In this document: one piece after another, positions 35,611-44,964 of the stretch
Layout: each line of letters begins with the position of its first letter
Position numbering within the stretch: position 1 is the first letter of the stretch
Source of the DNA: Streptomyces antibioticus
GTDB taxonomy: Bacteria > Actinomycetota > Actinomycetes > Streptomycetales > Streptomycetaceae
DNA length: 64,000 bases
Assembly: GCF_001514065.1 (NCBI RefSeq)
Contig: NZ_KQ948434.1
Location: 124,001-188,000, forward strand
Reading direction: 5' to 3'
Notes under the pieces: generated by a model
What the model saw: only the letters and a program-made list of their open reading frames with translations
Databases searched by the model: none
What the model was told of the DNA's origin: nothing
Position numbers and translations under genes: made by a program

Positions 35611-37830
35611 TCAGCCCTTTTCCAGGTACTGCTCCCTCTCCTCGTCCAAGAGAGCATCGAGCGCTGTGCGCAGAGCCGGAAGGTTCTTCAGCTCCGGATC
35701 CGCCTCCACCACCGCCACCGCCTCCTCCCGCGCCTCCGCGATGACCTCCTCGTCCTCGATGACGGCGAGGACCTTCAGGGAGGTGCGGGCGCCCGACTGG
35801 GCCTGGCCCAGGACGTCGCCCTCGCGGCGCTGCTCCAGGTCGATGCGGGAGAGCTCGAAGCCGTCCAGCGTCGACGCCACCGCGTTCAGGCGCTGGCGGG
35901 CGGCGCTGGCCTCCGGCATCTCCGTGACCAGGAGGCAGAGGCCCGCCGCGGAGCCTCGGCCCACCCGGCCGCGGAGCTGGTGGAGCTGGGAGACGCCGAA
36001 GCGGTCGGCGTCCATGATCACCATGGCGGTGGCGTTGGGGACGTTGACGCCGACCTCGATGACCGTGGTGGCGACCAGGACATGGGTCTCGCCGGCGGCG
36101 AAGCGGCGCATGACCGCGTCCTTGTCGTCGGGGTGCATACGGCCGTGCAGCACCTCGACCTTGAGGCCGTTCAGCGGGCCCTTGGCGAGCTGGTCGGCGA
36201 CCTCCAGGACGGCCAGCGGCGGGCGCTTCTCGGCCTCGTCCTCGGCGGACTTGCGGGCCTTCTTGGGGTCGGCGGGTTCGTCGATGGCGTCACCGATGCG
36301 AGGGCAGACGACGTACCCCTGATGGCCGTTCTCCACCTCCTCGCGCACCCGCTCCCAGGCGCGGGCCAGGAAGTGGGGCTTGTCGGCGGCCGGGACGACA
36401 TGGCTGGCGATCGGGGAGCGGCCGGCCGGGAGCTGGTCGAGGACCGAGGTCTCCAGGTCGCCGAAGACCGTCATCGCGACCGTGCGCGGGATGGGCGTGG
36501 CCGTCATCACGAGGAGGTGCGGGGGCTGTTTGCCCTTGCCGCGCAGGGCGTCGCGCTGCTCCACGCCGAAGCGGTGCTGTTCGTCGACGACGACCAGACC
36601 GAGGTCGTGGAACTGGACCTTGTCCTCGATCAGCGCGTGCGTGCCGATGACGATGCCGGCCTCGCCGGTGATCAGGTCGAGCAGTGCCTGTTTCCGCGCG
36701 GCCGCTCCCATGGAGCCGGTGAGCAGCACCACCTTGGTGGCGTGCTCGGCCCCGCCCAGCATCCCGCCCTCGGCCAGCTCGCCCATCATCTCGACGACGG
36801 AGCGGTGGTGCTGCTGGGCGAGGACCTCGGTGGGCGCGAGCATGGCGGCCTGCCCGCCGGCGTCGACGGTGGCGAGCATGGCGCGCAGGGCCACCATTGT
36901 CTTGCCCGATCCGACCTCTCCTTGCAGCAGCCGGTGCATCGGATGCTCCGTCGCCAGGTCGTCGAAGATCTCCTTGGAGACCTTCTGCTGGCCCTCCGTG
37001 AGGGTGAAGGGGAGGCGGTCGTCGAAGGCGGACAGGAGGCCGTCCGGCTTGGGGCGGCGGGCCACCGCCGGGAGCTGGGCGTCGGCGTGCCGGCGGCGGG
37101 CGAGGGCGACCTGGAGGACGAAGGCCTCGTCCCACTTGAGGCGGTCGCGGGCCTGGAGATAGTCGGCCTTGGTCCGCGGCTGGTGCATCTTGATGAGCGC
37201 TTCCGGCAAGGGCAGGAGCCCTCGACCTTCCCGGAGGGAGTCCGGGAGCGGATCGACCGCCTCCTGGGCGCTCGGCAGGACCGTCTGGATGGCCTTGCCG
37301 ATCTTCCAGGACTCCAGCTTGGCCGTGGCGGGGTAGATCGGGATGAGGGCGCCGGCCCAGGTCTCGACCGTCTCGTCGGCTTCTTCCGAGTCTCCGCGCA
37401 GCAACTCGTACGCCGGATGTGCCAGTTGGAGCCGGCGGTTGAAGACGGAGACCTTGCCCGCGAACATCGCGCGTGTGCCCGGCAGGAGCTCCTTGTGGGG
37501 CTTGTGGACGCCGTTGCCGAAGAAGACCAGTTGGAGGCGGCCGTTGCCGTCCGTGATGGTCACTTCGAGGCGCTGGCCCTTGCCTCGCGGGGCCTTGGCG
37601 GAGGCGAAGGTGTGCAGACGGGCGTCGGCGACCATGGCCACCACGGTGACGTGCTCGTCCATGGGGAGGTCGGCGAGGTGGGTGAGCTGGCCCCGCTCCT
37701 CGTATCTGCGCGGGTAGTGGTGCAGGAGGTCGCCGACGGTGTGCAGGCCGAGGTGCTCGGCCATCACCTTCGCGGTGGGTGGGCCGAGCACCTTTTTCAG
37801 TGGTTCTTCGAGTGCGGGCACGAGATCCAT
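35611..37830 (-). CDS. recG: ATP-dependent DNA helicase RecG
   Basis: Fork-reversal helicase. 739 aa from the ATG at 37830 (MDLVPALEEPLKKVLG). The N-terminal wedge (OB) domain is followed by helicase motifs: I GEVGSGKTMVALRAM, II DEQHRFG (DEQH box), III TATPIPRT, and V/VI in TTVIEVGVNVPNAT and QLRGRVGRG. The C terminus carries the RecG tail. Divergent from the Hsp90-like gene; the gap is 169 nt. Confidence 0.96.
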   Translation of the reverse strand: MDLVPALEEPLKKVLGPPTAKVMAEHLGLHTVGDLLHHYPRRYEERGQLTHLADLPMDEHVTVVAMVADARLHTFASAKAPRGKGQRLEVTITDGNGRLQLVFFGNGVHKPHKELLPGTRAMFAGKVSVFNRRLQLAHPAYELLRGDSEEADETVETWAGALIPIYPATAKLESWKIGKAIQTVLPSAQEAVDPLPDSLREGRGLLPLPEALIKMHQPRTKADYLQARDRLKWDEAFVLQVALARRRHADAQLPAVARRPKPDGLLSAFDDRLPFTLTEGQQKVSKEIFDDLATEHPMHRLLQGEVGSGKTMVALRAMLATVDAGGQAAMLAPTEVLAQQHHRSVVEMMGELAEGGMLGGAEHATKVVLLTGSMGAAARKQALLDLITGEAGIVIGTHALIEDKVQFHDLGLVVVDEQHRFGVEQRDALRGKGKQPPHLLVMTATPIPRTVAMTVFGDLETSVLDQLPAGRSPIASHVVPAADKPHFLARAWERVREEVENGHQGYVVCPRIGDAIDEPADPKKARKSAEDEAEKRPPLAVLEVADQLAKGPLNGLKVEVLHGRMHPDDKDAVMRRFAAGETHVLVATTVIEVGVNVPNATAMVIMDADRFGVSQLHQLRGRVGRGSAAGLCLLVTEMPEASAARQRLNAVASTLDGFELSRIDLEQRREGDVLGQAQSGARTSLKVLAVIEDEEVIAEAREEAVAVVEADPELKNLPALRTALDALLDEEREQYLEKG

Positions 37831-37876
37831 TGCACACCACGTCACTGACAATGCCGTATACGTCTCGCGAAACACC

Positions 37877-37906
37877 TGGTCAGGCGGGCTGTTCCGGCTT
37901 TAGGAT
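37877..37906 (+). promoter_or_regulatory. Candidate promoter of the Hsp90-like operon
   Basis: TGGTCA, an 18-nt spacer, then TAGGAT, resembling a Streptomyces vegetative promoter. It lies 94 nt upstream of the ATG in the 169-nt divergent gap with recG. No heat-shock element was identified. Confidence 0.45.
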
Positions 37907-37999
37907 GGCGCGCCTCCGGCCATCCCCTCCGCGGTCACCGCCCCACCGGGACCGCCCGACCCCGCGCCGTAGACCGTCCCCGCCCACGGCGCCGTTGCG

Positions 38000-39823
38000 A
38001 TGGACTCCCAGACCTCACAGGCATCCCAGGCTTCTCCGTCCCACACCTTCCAGGTCGACCTGCGTGGTCTGGTGGACCTGCTCTCCCATCACCTCTACTC
38101 CAGTCCGAGGGTCTATCTGCGCGAGCTGCTGCAGAACGCCGTGGACGCCATCACCGCGCGCCGGGCCGAACAGCCGGGCGCCCCGGCGGAAGTGCGGCTT
38201 TACGCGGCGGACGGCACCCTGCGGGTCGAGGACTCCGGCGTAGGGCTCACCGAGACGGACGTGCACGACCTGTTGGCGACCATCGGCCGCAGTTCGAAGC
38301 GGGCCGACGGGATCCAGGAGGCGCGGTCCGAGTTCCTGGGGCAGTTCGGCATCGGGCTGCTCGCCTGTTTCGTGGTGGCCGAGCGGATCCGGGTGGTCAG
38401 CCGCAGCGCCCGCACTCCGGACGCGGCGCCGGTGGAGTGGACGGCGAGCGACGACGGTTCGTACACCGTGCGGACGCTGGCGCCCGAGGCCCGGCCCGAG
38501 CCCGGCACCACCGTGCACCTGACGGCCCGGGCGGGGGCCGGGGAGTGGCTGGCGCCGGATCGGGTCCTGGAGCTGGCGCGGGACTTCGGCGCGCTGCTGC
38601 CGTACGACGTGCGGGTGGACGGCGAGGCGGTCACCGATCTGCCGGCGCCCTGGGACCGGTCCTACCCCTCCCCCGCGGGCCGAAGGGTGGCCCTGGCGCG
38701 GCACTGCCATGACCTGTTCGGGTTCACGCCGCTGGACGCGATCGAGCTGAACGTGCCGCTCGCGGGTGTCCGCGGGATGGCGTACGTCCTGCCGTCGGCG
38801 GTCAGTCCGGCGCAGCGGGCGACGCATCGCGTCCACCTCAAGGGGATGCTGCTGACCGAGCGGGCCGAACAGCTGCTTCCGGACTGGGCGTTCTTCGTGC
38901 GGTGCGTGCTCGACACGGACAGTCTGCGGCCCACCGCGTCGCGGGAGGCGCTGTACGAGGACGAGACGCTGGCCGCCGTACGGGAGGCGCTCGGGGAAAG
39001 GATTCGGTCCTGGCTGACGGGGCTCGCCGCGGGCGATCCGGAACGGCTGGCGGCGTTCTTGTCGGTGCACCACCTGGGCGTGAAATCGCTGGCGCGGCAC
39101 GACCCGGAGATGCTGCGCACGATGCTGCCGTGGCTGCCCTTCGAGACGACCGACGGGCCGCTGTCCCTGGAGGAGTTCGCGCGGCGGCACCCGGTCGTGC
39201 ACTTCACGCGGACCGTCGAGGAGTTCCGGCAGGTCGCGCCGATCGCGTCCGCGCAGGGCATCGGGGTGGTCAACGGCGGTTACACGTACGACAGCGACCT
39301 GGTCCAGGCGCTGCCGTCGGTGCGGCCGGGGACGGTGGTGGCGGAGCTGGACGCGGACACCGTGACCGCGCATCTGGACGCCGTCGACCCGGCGGAGGAG
39401 CTGGCGCTGGCCGGCTTCCTGGCCGCCGCGCGGGCCACGCTCGACCCGCTGGGCTGTGATGTCGTGCTGCGCGCCTTCCACCCGCTCACCGTGCCCGCCC
39501 TGCACCTGGACGACCGGGCCGCCCGCCACGAGCAGGCCCGCGCCGACGCCGAGGCGCAGGCGGACGACCTGTGGGCGGGCATCCTCGGCTCGCTGCGCGG
39601 GACCGCCCCGCGCGCGCGTCTGGTGCTCAACCACCTCAACCCGCTGATCCGGCGGATCAGTTCGCTGCACGGGCCGGAACTGATCGGCACCGCCACGGAG
39701 TCCCTGTACGGGCAGGCACTGCTGATGGCGCAGCGGCCGCTCAGGCCCGCGGACTCGGCGCTGCTGAACCGGGCCTTCATCGGACTGCTGGAGTGGGCGA
39801 CGAACGGCGAGGAGGGGCACTGA
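38000..39823 (+). CDS. Divergent Hsp90-family (HtpG-like) ATPase
   Basis: 607 aa, slightly shorter than HtpG. The GHKL ATPase core is intact: YLRELLQNAVDA (catalytic Glu42, Mg-binding Asn46), RVEDSGVGLTETDV (Asp78, Gly80/82), TIGRSSKR lid region, GQFGIGLLACFVVAERI (113-129) and GTTVHLTA. The middle domain has the conserved Arg315 in PTASREALYEDETL. The C-terminal third is highly divergent from HtpG and lacks a recognisable canonical dimer tail. It ends 1 nt into the next gene, so the two are translationally coupled. HSP90 family is certain; specific function is not. It is likely an accessory paralogue. Confidence 0.88.
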   Translation: MDSQTSQASQASPSHTFQVDLRGLVDLLSHHLYSSPRVYLRELLQNAVDAITARRAEQPGAPAEVRLYAADGTLRVEDSGVGLTETDVHDLLATIGRSSKRADGIQEARSEFLGQFGIGLLACFVVAERIRVVSRSARTPDAAPVEWTASDDGSYTVRTLAPEARPEPGTTVHLTARAGAGEWLAPDRVLELARDFGALLPYDVRVDGEAVTDLPAPWDRSYPSPAGRRVALARHCHDLFGFTPLDAIELNVPLAGVRGMAYVLPSAVSPAQRATHRVHLKGMLLTERAEQLLPDWAFFVRCVLDTDSLRPTASREALYEDETLAAVREALGERIRSWLTGLAAGDPERLAAFLSVHHLGVKSLARHDPEMLRTMLPWLPFETTDGPLSLEEFARRHPVVHFTRTVEEFRQVAPIASAQGIGVVNGGYTYDSDLVQALPSVRPGTVVAELDADTVTAHLDAVDPAEELALAGFLAAARATLDPLGCDVVLRAFHPLTVPALHLDDRAARHEQARADAEAQADDLWAGILGSLRGTAPRARLVLNHLNPLIRRISSLHGPELIGTATESLYGQALLMAQRPLRPADSALLNRAFIGLLEWATNGEEGH

Positions 39824-42771
39824 TGGGGGAGATCGCGGACTTCGACGCACTGCGCCGGGCGATGGCGGAGAACGGCGAGCAGCCGGAGGGCCCGGCCCGC
39901 AACGCGCGCGCGGAGCAGCTGCTGGCCGAGGCGGAGAAGCTGAACATCCCGCTCGCCGTGATCGAGGCGCTCGGACACCAGCTGAAGGTCTACAACTACA
40001 GCTCCGAGAAGGACAAGATGTTCGTCCCCTTCGCGCGTCTGCTGCGCATGTGGGACGAGCGGCCGGAGGACTTCGACGAGTACGAGACCCATTCGCTGCA
40101 CTGGGTCTTCAAGTGGATGTCGTCCGGGATGCTCGACCAGCCGCACATCCCGCTCGCCTCCATAGAGAAGTGGCTCGGCGAGATGGAGCACCGCTACCGG
40201 CTCGCCGGGCACTCCGAACGGGCGGTGCGCAGCGTCGAGTTCACCGTCGCCGCGCATGTCGGGGACACCGCGCGCGCGGAGCGGGCGTTCACCGCGTGGC
40301 TGGCCGCCGACCGGGACGCCATGGCCGACTGCCACGCGTGCGAGCTGAACGGGCAGGGCTGGTGGCGGGCGGAGCAGGGCCGGGACGCGGAGGCGCTGCG
40401 GCTGTGGGCGCCGGTCCTGGAGGGCGAGTTCACCTGCGCGCACGAGCCGCACACGGTCCTCGCCTCCTCCCTGGTCCCGCTGCTGCGGCTGGGCCGCCTG
40501 GACGAGGCGCGGGCCAACCATCTGCGGGGCTTCCGGCTGGTGCGGGCCATGGAGAGCATGCGCACCGCGTACGCCGACCATGTGGAGTTCTGCGCGCTGA
40601 CCGGCAACGAGGCCCGCGGTCTGGAGCTGCTCGCGGAGCGCCCGGCGTACTTCACGGACAGCGGGCATCCGCGCGGCAAGCTGGAGTTTCTGAGCGCGGT
40701 CACGCTGCTCATGGACCGGCTGACCGGCCTCGGCCTGGGCGACCGCCAGGTGCCGGGACCGGCAGGGCGGACGTGGACGGCCCGCGAACTCGCGGCACAC
40801 GCGCGCGCGGAGGCCCTTGACCTGGCCGGCCAGTTCGACCGGCGCAACGGCACGACGTACGTCAGCGACCGGGCACGGGCGCGTATGGCGCAGGAACCGC
40901 TGGTCGAGCGGCTGCCGTTGGGCGTGCGCGCCGCCCGCCAGGCCACCGCCCCGGTCGCGCCGCCCCCGCCCGCCGCACCGGAGACCGCCCTCACCGCCCT
41001 GATCTCCGAGGCCCGCCGCCTCTCCGACGGCCTCCAGCCGAACGCCGTGGAGGCGTGGGCGGCGGTCGCGCGGGCCGCGGAGGGCGTCGAGCTCGACCCG
41101 CGCGACCAGGCGGAGATCGTCGACCACCGGGCGATGGACCTGGGCCCCGCGGGCCTCGACCTGTTCGAGCACGCCGCCGAGCTCTACTCGGCGGCGGGTG
41201 ATCCGGGGGAGGCGCTCGCGGCACGCACGCGTGGGGCGTTCATGCGGGCCCTCGCCGGTGACGTGGAGGGCGCGCTGGCCGCGGTCGCGGGGCCCTACGA
41301 CGAGGCCCTCGCCCTGTACGCCGAGGACGGCACCGGCGTACGGCAGACGGCGTCGGTGCTGATGGGGCGGGCACGGATCCTGCTGCGGCGGGTGCAGGCG
41401 GCCGAGGAGGAGGGCGCCGTGCCGGCGTCGGTCCTGGCCGAGGCCGAGGCCGCCGTCCGGGAGGTGCTCGCCCTCGTCGACGGGCGGACCGGCGAGGACG
41501 TGCGGCTCGGCTCGCGGGACGCCGAGGCGCGGGCCATGCTCGCGGAGCTGGCGGCGTACGCCGGGGACCTGCCGAGGGCCGCCGGGCTGTTCGCGCGCGC
41601 CGCGGAGGGGTTCGTGTCGGCGGGGCTGCCGTGGTTCGCGGTGGAGTACCAGGCCAGGCTGGCCGGGCTCGCCCACCATCTCGGCGACGTCGGGCAGGCC
41701 GAGTGGGCGCTGCGGGCGGCCCTGACACACGGCGAGCCGTATCTGGAGGCCACCGGACGGGCCCAGCTGCACCTCCAGCTCGCCGAGGTGCTCGGCGGCA
41801 CGGGACAGCCGGAGGAGGCCGCCGAACAGGCCCTGGAGGCGGCGCACTGGGCCGACGAGGCCGGTGCCGGACCCACGCTCGGCGCCTGGGCGCGGCATCT
41901 GCTCGGCGGGTTCCTGCTGCGGCAGGGCCGGTGGGCCGAGGCGGCGGCGGTGCTGGAGTCGGCGCTGCCCGACCTGAGCGTCGACACGCACGGCGACGCC
42001 GCGGTCGTCCAGGCGCAGTGGTGGCTCGGCGACTGTCTGAGCGAGCTCGGTGAGCACCGCGAGGCCGCCGAGCACCGCCTGCGGGCCGCCGAGCTCGCCC
42101 GGGAGTGGCCGGAGCAGCAGGACCACGCGACGCTGGCCCACCTCGCCGGGGAGTCCCTCGGCGAGGCGGGACTGCCCGACGAGGCCGCCCGGGCGTACAC
42201 GCGCGCGGGCGAGCTGTGGCGCGAGGTCGGTGACGTGCACGGGCTGGTCCGCTCGCTGCGCGCCCGCGCGTGGCTGGCGCTGCGCGCGGAGGGCGGGCAG
42301 GACGAGGCCCGGGAGCTGATGGCGGAGGCGGTACGGGAGTGCGGGGAGGCGCTGGGCGCGGACTCCGTGGCCGACGAGGCCCGGCAGCGGCTCGTCGCCG
42401 AACTCGGGCACACCCATCGGCAGTACGGCGACCTGCTCGCCCGTTCGGCCGCCGAGGACGCCGAGGACGAGACGATCCAGGCCGCCCTGGAGGACGCCCT
42501 CGCCCAGATGACCGAGGCCATCGTGGTGTTCGCGTCCCTCGGCGACGACGCCCTGCACAGCCGCACCGGCGCCGAGCTCGCCGCGGGCTGGCTGGAGGCC
42601 GACCTCAGCCGCCCCGACCGCGCGGCGGCACGCGCGCGTGCGGTGCTGGCGGCGTACGAGGACTACGAGCCGTACGAGGCCCGTGGGGCGTACGACGAGG
42701 GCGAGGACGACGAGACGGCACAGGCGCGCTGCGCGGAGGCCCAGCAGATGCTCCAGGTCCTGGACGACTAG
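39823..42771 (+). CDS. Large TPR-repeat protein coupled to the Hsp90-like gene
   Basis: 982 aa. The ATG at 39823 overlaps the Hsp90-like stop (TGATG) with a GGAGGGG ribosome site just before. The N-terminal 130 residues have no family I know (YNYSSEKDKMFVPFARLLRMW). From about 140 to 960 the protein is alpha-helical with TPR-like repeats (LGRLDEARANHLRGF, AGDPGEALAARTRGA, LGEHREAAEHRLRAAELA). The middle (near 370-390) is a Pro/Ala linker. The C terminus is acidic. No enzymatic motif is seen. Palindrome CACGCGCGCGTG occurs at 42629-42640. By context it is the partner or co-chaperone of the Hsp90-like protein. Confidence 0.85.
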   Translation: MGEIADFDALRRAMAENGEQPEGPARNARAEQLLAEAEKLNIPLAVIEALGHQLKVYNYSSEKDKMFVPFARLLRMWDERPEDFDEYETHSLHWVFKWMSSGMLDQPHIPLASIEKWLGEMEHRYRLAGHSERAVRSVEFTVAAHVGDTARAERAFTAWLAADRDAMADCHACELNGQGWWRAEQGRDAEALRLWAPVLEGEFTCAHEPHTVLASSLVPLLRLGRLDEARANHLRGFRLVRAMESMRTAYADHVEFCALTGNEARGLELLAERPAYFTDSGHPRGKLEFLSAVTLLMDRLTGLGLGDRQVPGPAGRTWTARELAAHARAEALDLAGQFDRRNGTTYVSDRARARMAQEPLVERLPLGVRAARQATAPVAPPPPAAPETALTALISEARRLSDGLQPNAVEAWAAVARAAEGVELDPRDQAEIVDHRAMDLGPAGLDLFEHAAELYSAAGDPGEALAARTRGAFMRALAGDVEGALAAVAGPYDEALALYAEDGTGVRQTASVLMGRARILLRRVQAAEEEGAVPASVLAEAEAAVREVLALVDGRTGEDVRLGSRDAEARAMLAELAAYAGDLPRAAGLFARAAEGFVSAGLPWFAVEYQARLAGLAHHLGDVGQAEWALRAALTHGEPYLEATGRAQLHLQLAEVLGGTGQPEEAAEQALEAAHWADEAGAGPTLGAWARHLLGGFLLRQGRWAEAAAVLESALPDLSVDTHGDAAVVQAQWWLGDCLSELGEHREAAEHRLRAAELAREWPEQQDHATLAHLAGESLGEAGLPDEAARAYTRAGELWREVGDVHGLVRSLRARAWLALRAEGGQDEARELMAEAVRECGEALGADSVADEARQRLVAELGHTHRQYGDLLARSAAEDAEDETIQAALEDALAQMTEAIVVFASLGDDALHSRTGAELAAGWLEADLSRPDRAAARARAVLAAYEDYEPYEARGAYDEGEDDETAQARCAEAQQMLQVLDD

Positions 42772-42795: not shown

Positions 42796-44481
42796 CTACT
42801 CGACCCCGATGAGGAGCAGCGCCCCCTGCCGTCCGCCCCGGTACACCACCGTGTCGACGGCGAGGTACGCCTCACGCACGCGTGCTTCGAGGTGGTCGGC
42901 GATGGAGTCGGGGGCCTCGTCGCCGAGGACGAGGGTCACGAGCTCGCCGCCCGCCGACAGCATGCGGTCCAGGACGGTCTCGGCCGCGGAGGTGACGTCA
43001 GAGCCGATCACGGCCACGTCGCCGTCGATGAGGCCGAGGACGTCGCCCGCTTCACAGATGCCGGCCAGGGTCCAGGACTGGCGTTCGGCGACGGCGACCT
43101 CGGCGTAGCGGGTGGCGCCGGCGGCCGAGGTCATCGAGACGACGTCCTCGTCGAAGCGGCGTCCGGGTTCGTGCACGGCGAGCGCGGCGATGCCCTGGAC
43201 CGCGGAACGGGTCGGGATCAGGGCGACCCGGATGCCCTCGGTGCGGGCCTGCTCGGCCGCGGCGGCCGCGGTGTGGCGCAGGTCGGCGTCGTTGGGCAGC
43301 AGCACGACCTCGCGCGCGTGGGCCCGTCGTACGGCCTCGACGATCTCTCCGCTCGCGGGCGGCTCCCCGGGGCGCGCGAGCACGGTGGTGGCGCCCGCCT
43401 CCGTGTAGAGCCCGGCCAGCCCCTCGCCGGGCACGACGGCGACGACGGCCCGCTGCACCCGCTCCCGGGGCGGCCGCTCGCCCCCGCGCGTGTGGACGTC
43501 ACCGAGCGCGAAGTGCGTGATCCGGATGCGGTACGGCCGCCCCGCCTCGACGCCCGCCTCCACGGCCGCGCCCGCGTCGTCGACATGCACATGGACGTTC
43601 CACAGCCCGTCGCCCCCGACGACGACGAGCGAGTCCCCCAGGGCGTCGAGGCGGGTCCTCAGCCGGGCCACGGCCGCGTCCTCGGCCTCCAGGAGGTAGA
43701 TCACCTCGAAGGCGGGCCCATCGGCTTCCGCGGGCGCGTCCGCGCACTCGTCCACGGCGACCATGGCCGCCGTGTCGGAAACGGCGTCCATGCGCGCGTG
43801 CCCGGCGGGAGCAGCCGCCACCGCCCTCGGCGCCTCCCCGGTGAACGTCTCCACCAGCGCCCCGAGCACCGCCACCAGCCCCCGGCCGCCCGCGTCGACC
43901 ACCCCGGCCCGCTCCAGGACCGCCAGCTGCCCCGGGGTCGCCACGAGCGCCGCCCGGGCCCCTTCGTAGGCGGCCCGCGCGACCGCCCCGCAGTCACCCT
44001 CGCTCCCCTCGGCGGCGTCGGCCGCGGCCGAGGCGACGGACAGGACCGTGCCCTCCACCGGGTGGGCGACGGCCTCGCGCGCGGAGTCGGCCGCGCGGCG
44101 CAGCGCGAGACGGAGACCGGTCCCGTCTGTGTGAGACGCCTCACGGTCGTCGGCGAGGACCTGGGCCATACCGCGCAGCAGCTGGGCGAGGATCGTCCCG
44201 GAGTTCCCGCGGGCGCCTATGAGGGCGCCGTGCGCCATCGCGCGGGCCGCGTCGGCCAGCGAGGGCCGGCCGCTCTCGTCGTAGGCGGTGAAGACGGCCT
44301 CGACGGCCGCCGCCGCGGACTCCGCGGTCAGGTACAGGTTGGTGCCGGTGTCGCCGTCGGCCACCGGATAGACATTGATCGCGTCGATCTCCTCGCGCGC
44401 CCGCCCGAGCGCCTCCAGCGCGAGACCGCACCAGGTGCGCACCGCGAGAGCATCGAAGAATGTCTGCGGCACCTGCGCCAC
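42796..44481 (-). CDS. DhaL-domain (DAK2/FakA-like) kinase
   Basis: 561 aa. The start is the GTG at 44481 with AAGGAGG 5 nt upstream; the open frame extends 155 codons further without support. The N-terminal DhaL nucleotide domain has INVYPVADGDTGTNLYLT (metal-binding Asp residues) and GALIGARGNSGTILAQLLRG. The middle and C-terminal domains (from about residue 240) match fatty acid kinase FakA and DegV-like architecture. FakA phosphorylates FakB-bound fatty acids; no FakB gene is nearby. Divergent from rpmB. Confidence 0.85.
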   Translation of the reverse strand: MAQVPQTFFDALAVRTWCGLALEALGRAREEIDAINVYPVADGDTGTNLYLTAESAAAAVEAVFTAYDESGRPSLADAARAMAHGALIGARGNSGTILAQLLRGMAQVLADDREASHTDGTGLRLALRRAADSAREAVAHPVEGTVLSVASAAADAAEGSEGDCGAVARAAYEGARAALVATPGQLAVLERAGVVDAGGRGLVAVLGALVETFTGEAPRAVAAAPAGHARMDAVSDTAAMVAVDECADAPAEADGPAFEVIYLLEAEDAAVARLRTRLDALGDSLVVVGGDGLWNVHVHVDDAGAAVEAGVEAGRPYRIRITHFALGDVHTRGGERPPRERVQRAVVAVVPGEGLAGLYTEAGATTVLARPGEPPASGEIVEAVRRAHAREVVLLPNDADLRHTAAAAAEQARTEGIRVALIPTRSAVQGIAALAVHEPGRRFDEDVVSMTSAAGATRYAEVAVAERQSWTLAGICEAGDVLGLIDGDVAVIGSDVTSAAETVLDRMLSAGGELVTLVLGDEAPDSIADHLEARVREAYLAVDTVVYRGGRQGALLLIGVE

Positions 44482-44737
44482 CTGCGCCTCCTTGGACTGC
44501 TGGACGTGGACGCAGCGTAGACCCCGGGGAGGTGTCCACCGGAAGAGGGCCGGGAGCAGGGCCCTGAGCAGCCATGGTAGTTTCGTTCTACTGGCGCAGT
44601 CGTTGTATGCTGCTCCGGTTGCCCGATCCGATCGGGCCATTCCCCTGGCAGCGCCACTCAGATCTCTGATCCTACGATCTCGATCCCGGCTTGCCGGGAT
44701 CCAACCGTAAGTGCATCTGAAGTCTTTGGAGTGACCC

Positions 44738-44923
44738 GTGGCTGCCAACTGCGACGTCTGCGGCAAGGGGCCGGGCTTCGGCAACAACATCTCGCACTCG
44801 CACCGCCGTACGTCCCGTCGCTGGAACCCCAACATCCAGCGCGTGCGTACCGTGGTCGGCGGGACGCCGAAGCGCGTGAACGCTTGCACCTCGTGCATCA
44901 AGGCCGGCAAGGTCTCGCGCTGA
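44738..44923 (+). CDS. rpmB: 50S ribosomal protein L28, zinc-binding form
   Basis: 61 aa. The GTG start follows TTGGAGTG. CDVC and CTSC form the zinc site, so this is the C+ paralogue. [19 protein letters not shown] is the standard L28 core. It is monocistronic, followed by a terminator. A cysteine-free paralogue probably exists elsewhere in the genome, but that cannot be seen here. Confidence 0.96.
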
Positions 44924-44964
44924 CGCACAGCTAAGCGCGCGGCCACTGCTGGTTCGCTGCACTG

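Follow-up and report, generated by a model that had tools for sequence, protein, structure and literature searches.

Our analysis has shown that a 64,000-nucleotide stretch of the Streptomyces antibioticus genome (NCBI RefSeq assembly GCF_001514065.1, contig NZ_KQ948434.1, positions 124,001 to 188,000 of the forward strand; hereafter the window) carries a divergent Hsp90 gene whose end overlaps the start of a gene for a large helical partner protein. The pair may well be a bacterial Hsp90 with a helper of its own, and we put the probability that the two genes encode one chaperone machine, made up of an ATP-driven divergent Hsp90 clamp and a dedicated adaptor (co-chaperone), at about one half. 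The ATPase residues of the Hsp90 are intact, the two genes are paired almost obligately in Actinomycetota, and the pair is also found in Bacillota, where the partner's N-terminal domain is the minimal partner. The C-terminal part of the window's partner is predicted to form a tetratricopeptide repeat (TPR) superhelix, and the partner changes faster than the Hsp90.

The Hsp90-family ATPase gene (NCBIfam NF010683 / PRK14083; window positions 38000..39823, forward strand) encodes 607 amino acids and was assigned by profile, alignment and tree. The partner gene (39823..42771, forward strand) encodes 982 amino acids and its product is predicted to be all-alpha. As the first-pass annotation of the window had reported, the Hsp90 stop overlaps the partner start; both open reading frames were found, with one base common to stop and start (TGATG) in the junction CACTGATGGGG. 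The overlap (39818..39826, forward strand) stands behind a purine-rich GGAGGGG run, which could be the ribosome-binding site of the partner gene.

The Hsp90 protein

The Hsp90 protein is a member of PRK14083 ('HSP90 family protein'), which it matched with 855.4 bits over residues 12-604 (cut-off 455). Against HtpG (NF003555) it scored 172.9 bits, under the cut-off of 371, and it is thus not an HtpG proper. The residues of a GHKL/Hsp90 ATPase (E42, N46, D78, G114/G117/G119 and R315) are all present, and R41-E42, N46, D78, G114, G117, G119 and S314-R315-E316 are invariant in 15 aligned Hsp90 proteins from various lineages, including S. antibioticus' own HtpG. The N-terminal GHKL ATP-binding domain (38000..38650, forward strand, end approximate; PF13589, PF02518) holds E42, N46, D78, G114/G117/G119 and G169-T170. 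The R315 codon, within TASRE, was placed at 38942..38944 (forward strand) by the alignment of Hsp90 proteins, and we take it to correspond to the catalytic arginine of the Hsp90 middle domain. In the first-pass annotation the ATPase motifs had been listed as Glu42, Asn46, Asp78, Arg315 and Gly113-129. The four single residues stand, as do G114, G117 and G119, but residue 113 is a leucine and residue 129 an arginine.

The same annotation had described the last third of the protein as not HtpG-like. It is divergent, yet the HtpG profile gives one continuous alignment covering residues 15-579, and S. antibioticus' own HtpG can be aligned with the C-terminal part at low identity; the description is thus half right. 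Dimerisation of the clamp would depend on the C-terminal dimerisation domain, where the alignment reaches residue 579; an AlphaFold2 model made with 26 close orthologues had a predicted local distance difference test (pLDDT) score of 45.8 and was not used. The protein's tail reads ATNGEEGH, and an EEVD motif is not present at the C-terminus.

In a phylogenetic tree of Hsp90 proteins, PRK14083 and HtpG formed separate clades (support 100/99 and 100/100); the tree is unrooted, long branches meet in it, and one row from a phage contig (L172) was left out. In 2006 Chen et al. divided the bacterial Hsp90 paralogues into groups A, B and C, and Group C takes in gamma-proteobacteria, Firmicutes and Actinobacteria in the part of that paper available to us (PMC1525184). 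The Hsp90 described here probably belongs to one of these groups; Group C is the likely label, going by the description in the accessible part of the paper. The same part gives two copies of different groups for S. coelicolor (638 and 615 amino acids). A non-HtpG paralogue alongside HtpG in one genome is a feature that S. antibioticus has in common with these groups.

The partner protein

The first-pass annotation had called the partner gene a giant TPR gene. TPRs are recognizable in the C-terminal half, where Pfam TPR_12 matched with 40.8 bits (cut-off 30.1; best stretch, residues 730-798), but the N-terminal ~350 residues are not TPR by profile and matched no Pfam or NCBIfam family. The predicted fold had a pLDDT of 86.3, and the nearest matches to its TPR part were LGN, kinesin light chain and OGT in a search whose rows cover mainly residues 387-982. 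These three proteins are cargo- or peptide-binding TPR superhelices. Profile score and TPR-like fold agree in identifying a TPR protein, for the C-terminal half only. The superhelix comprises residues 387-946 (40981..42660, forward strand), as delimited by Pfam, predicted fold and identity comparisons.

The N-terminal domain (residues 1-348; 39823..40866, forward strand) is the part common to Actinomycetota and Bacillota partners. Alignments identified three invariant cysteines in it, C170 and C173 (D-C-x-A-C) and C205 (C-x-x-x-P), at 40330..40437 (forward strand), a possible metal or redox site. Conservation is strongest in this third of the protein, and divergence is fastest in the TPR superhelix. 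An apparent TPR swap in S. cellostaticus GX14503 (L029), in which the N-terminal domain is followed by an unrelated protein, was taken for an assembly chimera; L029 is among the 39 rows of the alignment used for structure prediction and mean identities, and was left out of the distance and co-divergence analysis.

Pairing of the two genes in Actinomycetota

The partner gene lies directly behind the Hsp90 gene in 80/80 Streptomyces loci, with a one-base overlap (TGATG) in 29 and a four-base overlap (ATGA) in 51; these loci are the best 80 of at least 553 matches and are near relatives by construction. A broader view was obtained from 396 actinobacterial genomes, in which the co-occurrence presumed by the first-pass annotation is borne out: 11 genomes have both genes, one has the Hsp90 only, two have the partner only and 382 have neither. 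These counts rest on 12 genomes with PRK14083 over its cut-off and 13 in which the N-terminal domain of the partner was strongly matched, with four more genomes left uncounted whose partner matches had E-values of 2e-5 to 1e-4. When the places were inspected by eye, the aligned ends of Hsp90 and partner were no more than 70 bp apart at 14/15 Hsp90 places over cut-off. Conversely, 14 of the 16 strong partner places adjoin a PRK14083 gene and none adjoins htpG. In G325, which has the Hsp90 without an N-terminal-domain partner, a 328-amino-acid open reading frame with TPR matches, its start uncertain, overlaps the Hsp90 end.

Among 199 Streptomyces genomes, 124 have both genes, one has the Hsp90 only (G545, a partial match), three have the partner only (G171, G525 and G567) and 71 have neither; these numbers describe presence in the genome, whether or not the genes are adjacent. 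The Hsp90 gene of G405 is split by a stop. Co-occurrence gave Fisher p values of 1e-18 for the 396 genomes and 4e-49 for the 199 Streptomyces, with kinship ignored in both. Since TPR stretches are common in S. antibioticus (at least 101 TPR_12 matches among those listed), our argument rests on the specific N-terminal domain and on its recurrence.

Pairs in other phyla

Searches by tblastn in plasmid and phage collections, in which some large records look like chromosomes, also turned up the pair in Paenibacillus, in two records from Listeria and in one unverified contig of faecal origin that is labelled as phage. Conservation as a pair thus extends beyond Streptomyces to other Actinomycetota, Listeria and Paenibacillus. 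The Bacillota partner consists of the N-terminal domain alone, without the TPR array, directly behind the Hsp90 gene, and is 320-353 amino acids long (353 in Paenibacillus). An annotated Listeria record (L129:9803-11771) has tandem partner genes of 324 and 320 amino acids behind one Hsp90 gene. In the same record the tandem genes are followed by an SMI1/KNR4 family gene.

A neighboring Hsp90 lineage is present in Pseudomonadota (Salmonella, Pseudomonas aeruginosa and Xanthomonas). Its members scored 277-293 bits against PRK14083, under the cut-off, versus 185-195 against HtpG, and formed a clade of their own (100/100) placed next to PRK14083 with 92/82 support in the unrooted tree. The gene behind this Hsp90 encodes 764-774 amino acids, with TPR matches below Pfam cut-offs in all three. 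E. coli 2013C-4282 has a pair of this type between fdhD and yiiG. Among 5426 complete E. coli genomes, the Hsp90 gene was found in 245, the partner gene in 245 and the contiguous pair (at least 80% of length) in 245. A cyanobacterial cousin occurs on a Pseudanabaena plasmid (L135:5749-15076), where a TPR gene is the second gene behind an Hsp90-like gene. The order of a divergent Hsp90 followed by a helical-repeat protein therefore recurs across lineages.

TIR, VWA and AAA genes lie near the cyanobacterial Hsp90-like gene. The C-terminal extension of its product has a weak CAP12/Pycsar TIR match and is ~31% identical to the product of the next gene.

Viral collections were also considered. The Hsp90 alignment identified four relatives on viral contigs, with each match limited to roughly 115-125 residues at the N-terminus; the partner alignment was without a searchable stretch for the viral contigs. 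For both Hsp90 and partner, PHROGs lists families whose function is unknown. Because the Listeria 'phage' matches look like bacterial DNA, these families perhaps come from bacterial DNA in phage-labelled records.

Divergence of the two proteins

The Hsp90 and its partner have diverged at different rates. Mean identity to the window's Hsp90 was 87-93% by domain among 25 Streptomyces orthologues, and for its partner (38 orthologues) the means were 85% over residues 1-348 and 60-75% over the segments that follow. Over 30 loci, mean pairwise distances were 0.081 for Hsp90, 0.078 for recG, 0.138 for the N-terminal domain, 0.151 for dhaL and 0.271 for the TPR part.

The E. coli pairs behaved in the same way. 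Identity to one query strain is 95-99% for the Hsp90 gene in 244/245 genomes and only 80-90% for the partner in 147. Between two E. coli strains, synonymous and nonsynonymous divergence (dS and dN) were 0.48 and 0.052 for the partner, 0.20 and 0.0043 for Hsp90, and 0.22 and 0.0063 for fdhD, with dN/dS ratios of 0.11 for the partner and 0.02 for Hsp90. In the first 200 codons of the partner (L173-L174) dS reached 0.90, about 4x that of the Hsp90 gene and fdhD. Since dS is raised only in the partner, and not in Hsp90 or fdhD, these codon comparisons, from one strain pair, suggest import of foreign alleles. Recognition of clients or targets would fit this combination of a conserved engine and a variable partner.

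Proposed mechanism and alternative explanations

We propose that the divergent Hsp90 would act as an ATP-driven clamp and that the partner would dock on it through the conserved, helical N-terminal domain in which the three cysteines lie. The C-terminal TPR superhelix would pick up a few client proteins or peptides and pass them to the clamp, and translational coupling would set the stoichiometry of Hsp90 to partner. The N-terminal domain is proposed as the dock because it is what Actinomycetota and Bacillota partners have in common. A wider form of this proposal is a phylum-spanning Hsp90-co-chaperone system with a fast-evolving solenoid adaptor, in which the cysteine domain docks and may serve as a metal or redox switch, while the TPR array has diversified for clients or invaders; we offer it tentatively and consider it rather doubtful. 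If the adaptor mechanism is true, Hsp90-TPR partnerships arose outside eukaryotes via another docking mode. The pair makes two questions testable, namely whether bacterial Hsp90s use adaptors and what the divergent paralogues are for.

Several observations weigh against an Hsp90 with a dedicated adaptor. Since the Hsp90 has no EEVD, the partner would have to dock in another way than eukaryotic TPR co-chaperones do. The N-terminal domain is not exclusive to Hsp90, because it is paired with YbjN-domain proteins in two genomes: in G204 (L168:8532-10609) it is fused to a YbjN domain and overlaps a further YbjN gene upstream, and in Actinomyces oris (L132:4160-8877) it lies behind YbjN-type genes. 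No Hsp90 gene was seen in these two loci. That the domain is joined to YbjN domains where Hsp90 is missing suggests an adaptor able to serve other chaperone-like partners. In addition, a PRK14083 gene over cut-off is missing from 3 of the 127 Streptomyces genomes that carry the partner. The htpG control is thin, with 19 loci and two products scanned: behind htpG, no open reading frame was called in four, the first one is on the opposite strand in eight and on the same strand in seven, with mostly 0.7-0.9 kb seen, and the two of the seven same-strand products that were scanned are a helicase and a luciferase-like enzyme without TPR. Hsp90 and the N-terminal domain co-diverge (partial r 0.49) no more than do recG and dhaL (0.50), which is no signal beyond linkage; this analysis used 30/70 rows, with 39 rows set aside for too little coverage of dhaL.

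The window's partner and the proteobacterial one show weak homology as well, with hhalign probabilities of 42-55% and a best E-value of 1e-4 in the CxxC region, and hmmsearch of the N-terminal domain against other partners gave 7.7 bits for the cyanobacterial TPR protein and 2.9 bits for that of P. aeruginosa, neither of them significant. From its gene order beside branched-chain amino-acid transport genes, the P. aeruginosa partner may be PA1069. An excerpt of one study reports that high temperature lowers PA1069 ~4-fold and raises htpG (PMC4957987), and if PA1069 is the partner, this fall argues against a general heat-shock chaperone. PA1069 is also listed among several proteins in a BatR pull-down in the accessible part of another paper (PMC13411936). 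The 'PA1068' of PMC9995270 is a strain name and not a gene.

Three other explanations were weighed against the adaptor mechanism. The partner could be the sole client of the Hsp90, which would fold or hold ready one large solenoid protein serving as a sensor or scaffold, much as eukaryotic Hsp90 holds NLR (nucleotide-binding leucine-rich repeat) immune receptors. The order of the overlapping genes, Hsp90 and then partner, their one-to-one pairing, and the large size and fast evolution of the partner would all agree with this. However, a Bacillota partner of just 320-353 amino acids would hardly need a private Hsp90, and partners occur without Hsp90 in G171, G204 and A. oris, where the reading frame is open and all three cysteines are retained, so that the protein can exist alone; we consider a sole client unlikely. 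It is very improbable, in our judgment, that the two are genetic neighbors only, a general stress chaperone and a TPR protein co-expressed for regulation without direct contact. Linkage alone accounts for the co-divergence seen, and TPR genes are abundant in S. antibioticus, as noted above. Against this, the pairing is kept in Actinomycetota, in Bacillota and, with a related or analogous partner, in Pseudomonadota, and a second, paralogous copy in S. antibioticus keeps the same order, which is hard to explain without functional contact.

A role in conflict with phages or other elements must also be considered, in which the TPR partner recognizes an invader, or a host protein modified by one, and the Hsp90 clamp is the ATP switch. 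Presence of the pair is patchy (Hsp90 in 125/199 Streptomyces and 245/5426 E. coli), its Streptomyces sites are empty in relatives, and it occupies the same site in the E. coli strains viewed (L173-L176). The raised partner divergence, with the foreign alleles suggested for one E. coli strain pair, and the cyanobacterial cousin that adjoins a TIR protein point in the same direction. So does lmo0941, the Listeria partner by gene order counted from the 'lmo0937 family', which is flagged as under selection, with its function called unknown, in the part of that study available (PMC6901971). On the other hand, the partner had no match in PADLOC-DB 2023, and Hsp90 matches there were weak and covered the N-terminal ATPase region only (TmtA, type II restriction enzymes), giving no specific match to a known anti-phage system, with the wider window not scanned for defence genes. 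No effector domain was recognized in the partner by Pfam scan, and the pair is chromosomal in 245/245 E. coli genomes. No notable repeats mark the borders of the recG site or are shared between them, the wider surroundings not having been searched for mobile-element or defence genes. A defence role is possible, and we rate the conflict module as improbable.

Relation to known systems

TPR co-chaperones of eukaryotic Hsp90, such as Hop, FKBP, PP5 and CHIP, bind its C-terminal EEVD. If the two genes here do encode a clamp and its adaptor, the systems are alike in joining an Hsp90 with a TPR protein. In contrast to the short carboxylate-clamp TPR domains of the eukaryotic proteins, which meet an EEVD that this Hsp90 lacks, the partner described here is predicted to have a long superhelix behind a cysteine-bearing N-terminal domain, and the genes are coupled one-to-one. 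HtpG shares the ATPase residues, but differs in profile score and clade, and no strong partner match lies next to its gene in the 396 genomes. The Pseudomonadota pairs of an 'ATP-binding protein' and a TPR or hypothetical protein have the same layout, a neighboring Hsp90 lineage and a CxxC in the partner, but their Hsp90 clade is separate and partner homology is weak. YbjN-domain proteins (PF10722) share the N-terminal domain as a fusion or neighbor in G204 and A. oris, with no Hsp90 seen there; members of this family resemble type III secretion chaperones in the available parts of two reports (PMC5398634, PMC3575483).

The first-pass annotation had regarded the pair as a candidate for an undescribed system. 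As for the two-gene module, it is without description in the literature searched, but its Hsp90 half is known by family, being already curated as NF010683 / PRK14083, whose description names no function or partner and does not include the two-gene unit. No bacterial Hsp90-TPR gene pair was described among the open-licence PubMed Central matches listed, which is not proof of absence. The available portions of two papers state that no co-chaperone of bacterial Hsp90 has been identified (PMC7926864, PMC3708813), and in the latter a large co-evolution study set hsp90B and hsp90C aside. Work on a geldanamycin producer, as far as its accessible text goes, reports only one Hsp90 family protein there, and nothing to indicate that HtpG has a specific function in a streptomycete (PMC3603443). 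The Hsp90 terms looked for do not occur in PMC7159879, and the part of PMC3710099 available mentions Hsp90 with sacsin only. A legend in PMC13092281 names 'TPR' and 'HATPase' among predicted defence-system domains.

Genomic location and second copy

The pair lies between recG on the left (35611..37875, reverse strand; RecG, 1144 bits) and a YloV/DhaL-type gene on the right (42796..44946, reverse strand), as had been noted in the first-pass annotation; both flanks are outside the module. The 'DhaL' flank is a TIGR03599 YloV gene ('DAK2 domain fusion protein'), matched over residues 170-716. Because this match begins only at residue 170, the true start is probably further in than that of the open reading frame. 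The gene also matches the FakA fatty-acid kinase profile, under cut-off. If recG starts at the ATG at 37830, a divergent intergenic region (37831..37999) separates it from the Hsp90 gene.

From the adjacency of recG and the DhaL gene in S. coelicolor, the pair had been proposed to be an insertion, and comparison of this interval across other Streptomyces supports the proposal, with the cassette at the recG site in some genomes and the site empty in others. Six Streptomyces without a recG-site copy were examined (G107, G171, G246, G334, G369 and G352). The YloV gene ends shortly before recG in five of them; for G352, the stretch fetched stops at recG. In G107, G246, G334 and G369, and not in G171, the recG-proximal intergenic part before recG has nearly the same sequence as here. 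recG also adjoins YloV in three genomes of other genera (G204, G050 and G235), and no YloV match was found beside recG in G257. Since recG adjoins YloV at the empty sites of relatives, the simplest reading of these sequences would be a cassette inserted on the opposite strand between the two genes, with loss of the cassette in the empty Streptomyces as the alternative. No repeats of 12 bases or more were found inside either border region of the site, and the longest stretches common to both borders (8 bases direct, 7 inverted) were no excess over a shuffle mean of 7.8.

The second Hsp90-partner pair of S. antibioticus lies on another contig in the same gene order, and the true htpG is on a third contig (C1). 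Compared with the window's pair, the second Hsp90 is 61% identical and the second partner 36% overall and 44% in its N-terminal third. A gene of 329-357 amino acids precedes the second-copy pair on the same strand in L087 (8801-9871), L123, L124 and L126, and a 325-amino-acid gene has the same place in L131; their likeness was judged from the first residues only. The L087 product had no Pfam or NCBIfam match and the L131 product no Pfam match. This gene is perhaps a third member of that version of the system. In another genome, G023 (L127), the partner of the recG-site copy is matched in two pieces, with a frame of 565 codons from the start, and by its reading frame is a probable broken copy; G023 also holds the second pair.

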